A program made the translations under genes and the position numbers. This document shows, piece after piece, positions 9,878 through 9,988 of a stretch of DNA of 40,917 nucleotides. The stretch comes from Chloroflexota bacterium (GTDB lineage: Bacteria; Chloroflexota; UBA5177). The stretch's first letter is position 1. The number at the start of each line of letters is the position of its first letter. Location: the NCBI GenBank assembly GCA_025966365.1, contig JAICWV010000013.1:1-40917 (forward strand), given 5' to 3'. Under the pieces are notes generated by a model. It did not search any database and was not told the DNA's origin. It worked only from the letters and a program-made list of their open reading frames with translations.

Positions 9878-9988
9878 CGGTCGGGCTGAGCTTGCGGGGC
9901 TGTGGCGCAGTTGGGAGCGCGTCTCAATGGCATTGAGAAGGTCAGGGGTTCGAATCCCCTCAGCTCCACCAACTTTCTCAGTCGACCG
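9878..9988 (+). other. Clamp helix enclosing the nested tRNA-Ala
   Basis: CGGTC (9878-9882) pairs with GACCG (9984-9988), and CTGAG (9886-9890) pairs with CTCAG (9977-9981). Between them G9884-C9983 and G9885-U9982 also pair, leaving only G9883 bulged. This makes 12 base pairs. The innermost pair is five nucleotides from each end of the mature tRNA (CTTGC at 9891-9895; ACTTT at 9972-9976). The helix lies inside the T-box leader and would carry the tRNA on its tip. Confidence 0.7.
9896..9971 (+). tRNA. tRNA-Ala (GGC), nested in the leuS T-box leader
   Basis: The acceptor stem GGGGCTG/CAGCTCC contains G3:U70, the alanine identity pair. The D-stem is GCGC/GCGC. The anticodon stem is TCTCA/TGAGA with loop ATGGCAT (anticodon GGC, codons GCC/GCU). 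The T-arm is AGGGG-TTCGAAT-CCCCT. The discriminator is A and CCA is encoded at 9969-9971. Every helix is intact, so it should be a functional tRNA rather than a mimic. It lies between T-box Stem I/III and the T-box antiterminator, upstream of the terminator, and so would be made whether or not leuS is read through. Confidence 0.93.

Follow-up and report, generated by a model that had tools for sequence, protein, structure and literature searches.

The choice of a T-box riboswitch for or against termination is made co-transcriptionally. T-boxes of the leuS class (Rfam family RF00230) carry a Stem I with the AGTA and GAA motifs, a CUC specifier, the RRRxG-Stem III-AA motif, a UGGU T-box bulge, and an antiterminator with its competing terminator, followed by leuS. 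Structural work assigns the RRRxG-Stem III-AA motif to the discriminator, which senses aminoacylation, and insertions of unknown structure and function have been noted in every T-box domain (PMC7583486). In the window, that is, the whole stretch of 40,917 nucleotides analysed, we found a leader that has all the elements of the leuS class but differs in that its Stem III loop is filled by a complete tRNA-Ala(GGC) gene, of another specificity than the tRNA-Leu it is predicted to sense. It resembles the T-boxes with Stem III insertions (PMC7583486) in carrying extra sequence in Stem III of the discriminator, whereas the insert is here identified as an intact tRNA gene. Non-nested leuS T-boxes of the same phylum (L017, L018, L019, L023, L243, L252, L257, and L263) likewise combine tRNA-Ala(GGC) with a leuS T-box in the order tRNA-antiterminator-leuS, but have the tRNA before Stem I and a plain hairpin as Stem III. 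Our literature search, with the two main T-box surveys outside its scope, turned up no account of a T-box that harbours a tRNA gene, and a prior description is possible.

The leuS T-box leader and its nested tRNA gene

The features of the locus, all on the forward (+) strand, are listed below with the evidence for each.

9658..9733, +, tRNA-Ala(CGC), the upstream neighbour, ending 11 nt before the T-box match (ARAGORN)
9745..10052, +, leuS T-box leader including the terminator, with the nested tRNA inside (RF00230 match)
9753..9844, +, Stem I (approximate extent), with the AGTA motif at 9766-9769 and GAA ahead of the specifier (sequence and RF00230 alignment)
9820..9822, +, specifier codon CUC (Leu) (GAACTCG at 9817-9823)
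9864..9868, +, RRRxG purine string GAGCG, 5' of Stem III (sequence; motif definition, PMC7583486)
9869..9890, +, Stem III 5' arm, including the initially annotated 9878-9890 (pairing and covariation)
9896..9971, +, nested tRNA-Ala(GGC) with encoded CCA and G3:U70 (ARAGORN; Rfam tRNA, 65.5 bits; identity pair)
9977..9996, +, Stem III 3' arm, including the initially annotated 9977-9988 (pairing and covariation)
9997..9998, +, AA after Stem III in the T-box discriminator (sequence; motif, PMC7583486)
10000..10031, +, antiterminator region with the T-box bulge UGGU at 10005-10008 (RF00230 alignment)
10018..10051, +, hairpin of the intrinsic terminator with its T run (-26.5 kcal/mol when 10011-10052 is folded)
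10068..12542, +, leuS, leucine--tRNA ligase (TIGR00396 of NCBIfam, 978 bits against a cut-off of 548)

The RF00230 match (9745-10034) covers the full model (positions 1-219) with 67 bits and an E-value of 1.9e-14, and its alignment itself puts the tRNA as an insert within Stem III. The score lies below the Rfam gathering score of 93, which is a scoring convention rather than a structural feature and is reached by 9 of 20 loci of nested relatives. The specifier-loop codon agrees with the regulated gene, GAA-CUC-G standing ahead of leuS, and GAACTC recurs in 54 of the 56 nested relatives; the CUC specifier thus predicts a response to tRNA-Leu(GAG). The discriminator is present, with GAGCG and AA enclosing a covarying stem, and the RRRxG string occurs at the same place in nearly all relatives. 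The UGGN element is found in GGGTGGTACCGCGG, together with an antiterminator and a competing terminator hairpin with its T run. The relatives share all of these structural features, namely specifier, discriminator, T-box, and antiterminator/terminator. Judged from the sequence, the helix around the tRNA is Stem III of a transcription-attenuating leuS T-box riboswitch with the tRNA-Ala(GGC) gene in its loop, since the RF00230 match spans the tRNA, leuS lies downstream, and the specifier is CUC.

This helix had been described in the initial annotation as 12 bp with a single bulged G, lying exactly 5 nt from each end of the mature tRNA. Both statements agreed with the sequence, and the pairing was supported by shuffles and, decisively, by the comparison with relatives. 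CGGTCGGGCTGAG (9878-9890) pairs with CTCAGTCGACCG (9977-9988) over 12 bp, comprising 11 Watson-Crick pairs and one G.U pair (G9885.U9982), and the bulged G may be G9883, G9884, or G9885, most Watson-Crick pairs being kept with G9884. The spacers to the tRNA that ARAGORN places at 9896-9971 are 5 nt each (9891-9895 and 9972-9976). What had been missed was the inward continuation of the helix, in which 9869-9875 (GCCAGAG) pairs with 9990-9996 (CTTTGGC) and U9876 with G9989, so that the 12 bp form the outer part of a helix of about 20 bp (9869-9890 with 9977-9996). Pairing of the two flanks amounts to -33.9 kcal/mol against a shuffle mean of -20.3, a value matched by only 10 of 5000 shuffles of both flanks; the flanks of the other four tRNAs in the window give -10 to -19 kcal/mol.

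The nested gene is a normal tRNA by ARAGORN and Rfam, with a cloverleaf, a GGC anticodon, and the G3:U70 identity pair, which is present in all 86 nested tRNAs found in the survey described below (CCA is encoded in 61 of them). It was the sole tRNA-Ala(GGC) match in 45 of 51 genomes, the remaining six, all of one family, having a second match; the counts come from a pattern search that misses deviating tRNAs and left 9 of 60 genomes without a match. Being usually the only tRNA-Ala(GGC) found, the nested tRNA must presumably be cut out of the leader, and the nesting accounts for the expression of what is apparently the only tRNA-Ala(GGC) of some genomes. It follows from the arrangement at 9658-9744 that Stem I in the window is flanked by tRNA-Ala(CGC) on one side and the nested tRNA-Ala(GGC) on the other; if both tRNAs were processed, a piece of about 160 nt containing the tRNA-Leu-binding stem would be released.

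Conservation of the nested loci and covariation of Stem III

Genomes were searched for a tRNA 3' half with a T-box close behind. Among 400 genomes from the window's phylum, 92 matched the pattern, a part of them by chance; in Bacillota, the phylum of Clostridium oryzae, 72 of 398 genomes matched. The window's phylum yielded 56 loci with an ARAGORN-confirmed tRNA-Ala(GGC) and two more were obtained from regions upstream of leuS; in Bacillota, 28 of the 30 loci examined contained a nested tRNA-Ala(GGC). The insert was tRNA-Ala(GGC) in every one of these 86 nested loci (58 from 15 families of the window's phylum and 28 from Bacillota), and none of the loci examined in the two phyla gave a confirmed nested tRNA of a different type. 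leuS lay downstream in 53 of 56 and 25 of 28 loci, respectively, several of the others being limited by the fetched length. The recurrence of the same tRNA with the same gene in two phyla indicates that the architecture is either old or transferred as a unit, and either history should be traceable.

The two arms of Stem III were aligned on RRRxG and AA, and their pairing score was compared with that of shuffled partners in 10,000 permutations. For 55 loci of the window's phylum, the native score was 423, against 163 +/- 14 for the permuted arms (maximum 220 in 10,000); with the two phyla combined (83 loci, 64 distinct 3' arms), the native score was 637 against 275 +/- 16 (maximum 335 in 10,000). 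Among 62 distinct arm pairs, 73% of the first seven positions paired in register, compared with 33–42% when the arms were slid by 1–2 nt and 45.5 +/- 2.4% when they were permuted, and GC, CG, AT, and TA pairs were all used at most positions. Relatedness of the loci inflates these counts; given the size of the effect and its spread over two phyla, there is nevertheless little doubt that the aligned arms covary. By contrast, unanchored duplex energies of the flanks, which ignore the register and hence separate poorly, were above the shuffled values at only 18 of 56 loci. The expectation that a meaningful helix would show compensatory changes was therefore amply borne out: such changes are extensive, pairing is kept across arms with other sequences, and the helix is found in almost every relative with a nested tRNA.

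Proposed order of switching and tRNA release

Collectively, the locus probably produces a transcript with two roles, a leuS T-box with tRNA-Ala(GGC) in the Stem III loop, in which the switch decision comes first and release of the tRNA later. A single transcript would serve both as the precursor of tRNA-Ala(GGC) and as the sensor of tRNA-Leu that decides on read-through into leuS. Stem III would form when RNA polymerase leaves the tRNA, bringing the RRRxG purines beside the antiterminator; we infer that the T-box decision, in response to tRNA-Leu, falls during transcription and that RNase P and 3'-end processing free the tRNA afterwards. Only about 80 nt separate the end of the tRNA from the completed terminator, so that the decision most likely precedes both processing steps. 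As the tRNA is located before the terminator, it would be made in the ON and OFF states alike, whether or not the T-box terminator stops transcription. Production of one tRNA and measurement of another would thus share a single RNA through a tRNA gene in the aminoacylation-sensing domain, Stem III accommodating a structured insert of 76 nt, and the nested locus provides a natural experiment on whether a T-box has to finish switching before its leader is cleaved.

The initial annotation had instead viewed the helix as a special clamp that flanks the tRNA and keeps the cut riboswitch together. For the window itself, the predicted annealing stood: after removal of the tRNA in silico, the halves stay joined with about -22 kcal/mol, or -24 with the whole 5' piece. 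The relatives, however, have a median joining energy of only -7.6 kcal/mol, a quarter of them being weaker than -4.4; Stem III comprises only 5–9 bp in many, the 20 bp of the window lying at the long end, and about five A/U pairs in the weak Stem III of L280. In L165–L170, of one genus, about 27 nt of additional sequence apparently separate Stem III from the antiterminator, and the anchored pairing is weak. Moreover, the anchored Stem III score has a median of 7.5 both in nested loci and in 26 non-nested T-boxes (p = 0.57). T-boxes without a nested tRNA thus ordinarily have a Stem III of equal strength, which argues against a helix made specially for the tRNA; together with the weak joining in relatives, it indicates that what is conserved is Stem III itself. 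Neither the joining energies of relatives nor the comparison of nested with the 26 non-nested Stem IIIs gave a comparative signal for tethering of the cut halves; on the energies modelled for the window, Stem III could possibly tether them as well.

A split riboswitch would go further, the tRNA being removed early and Stem III, with a bridging tRNA-Leu, reassembling the Stem I and antiterminator pieces into a working T-box. Such a mechanism, which would couple release of one tRNA to sensing of another on a single RNA, draws on the joining energies of the window, on the need to excise what is usually the sole tRNA-Ala(GGC) found, and on the covariation that maintains the pairing. We regard it as unlikely, because nesting does not go with a stronger Stem III, the joining energies of the relatives are low, and a co-transcriptional decision at a terminator so close behind the tRNA would presumably precede the cut. 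RNase III-type helices are known around pre-rRNA, and the length of up to 20 bp in the window with symmetric 5-nt spacers could suggest a comparable processing stalk unrelated to the T-box. This explanation is highly improbable and was rejected: pairing is conserved even where the helix, often of 5–9 bp, is too short for RNase III, and the arms are anchored to RRRxG and AA rather than to the tRNA ends, with spacers between 0 and over 20 nt long in the relatives. The position of the insert, precisely at the loop that caps a functional helix, would also suit a degenerate, tRNA-like cap that merely props Stem III, but the intact tRNA calls, the invariant G3:U70, the frequently encoded CCA, and the usual single copy make this very improbable, and it was likewise discarded. 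Chance complementarity of GC-rich flanks has a negligible probability; flanks of this kind frequently give high raw duplex energies, as reflected in the unanchored excess at only 18 of 56 loci, but few shuffles of the window flanks reached the native energy and the anchored permutations never came near the observed value, ruling it out. The reading that we prefer therefore remains the two-role transcript with switching before release; the points that count against it are the RF00230 score of the window below the gathering score, the weak or offset Stem III of some relatives, and the internal promoter-like site in one family.

Promoters and variant arrangements among relatives

In Bacillota, a promoter-like site was found upstream of Stem I in all 23 testable loci, against 2.4 expected, and between specifier and tRNA in none of 24, indicating that transcription there passes through the T-box to reach the tRNA. 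In 17 loci of one family (L150–L164, L171, and L172), a promoter-like TTGNCG-N17-TATAAT occurs between the specifier and the nested tRNA, inside the leader; this site could be a second promoter, from which the tRNA would additionally be produced on its own, independently of Stem I.

A search of seven genomes reached via their leuS loci gave no nested tRNA. Other leuS genes in the window's phylum have tRNA-Ala(GGC) ahead of Stem I, or a T-box with no tRNA next to it, or a tRNA adjoining leuS but no T-box; the tRNA-leuS neighbourhood thus occurs with and without the T-box. A LeuS tree requires ten changes between the nested and the other state, gains and losses being inseparable on the tree. In L237, L248, L249, L254, and L267, tRNA-Ala(GGC) lies immediately 5' of leuS with no recognisable T-box, which suggests that the neighbourhood outlives the switch. 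In L228 (genome G785, Bacillota), Stem I is apparently absent, while the promoter, the RRRxG-Stem III-tRNA-AA unit, the antiterminator, and the terminator are kept, possibly representing a discriminator-only T-box around the tRNA. Finally, L009 (genome G004), of the window's own family, retains the nested tRNA with a specifier region reading GAACACA and the T-box sequence GGTATAGCGG, and its T-box may be decaying.
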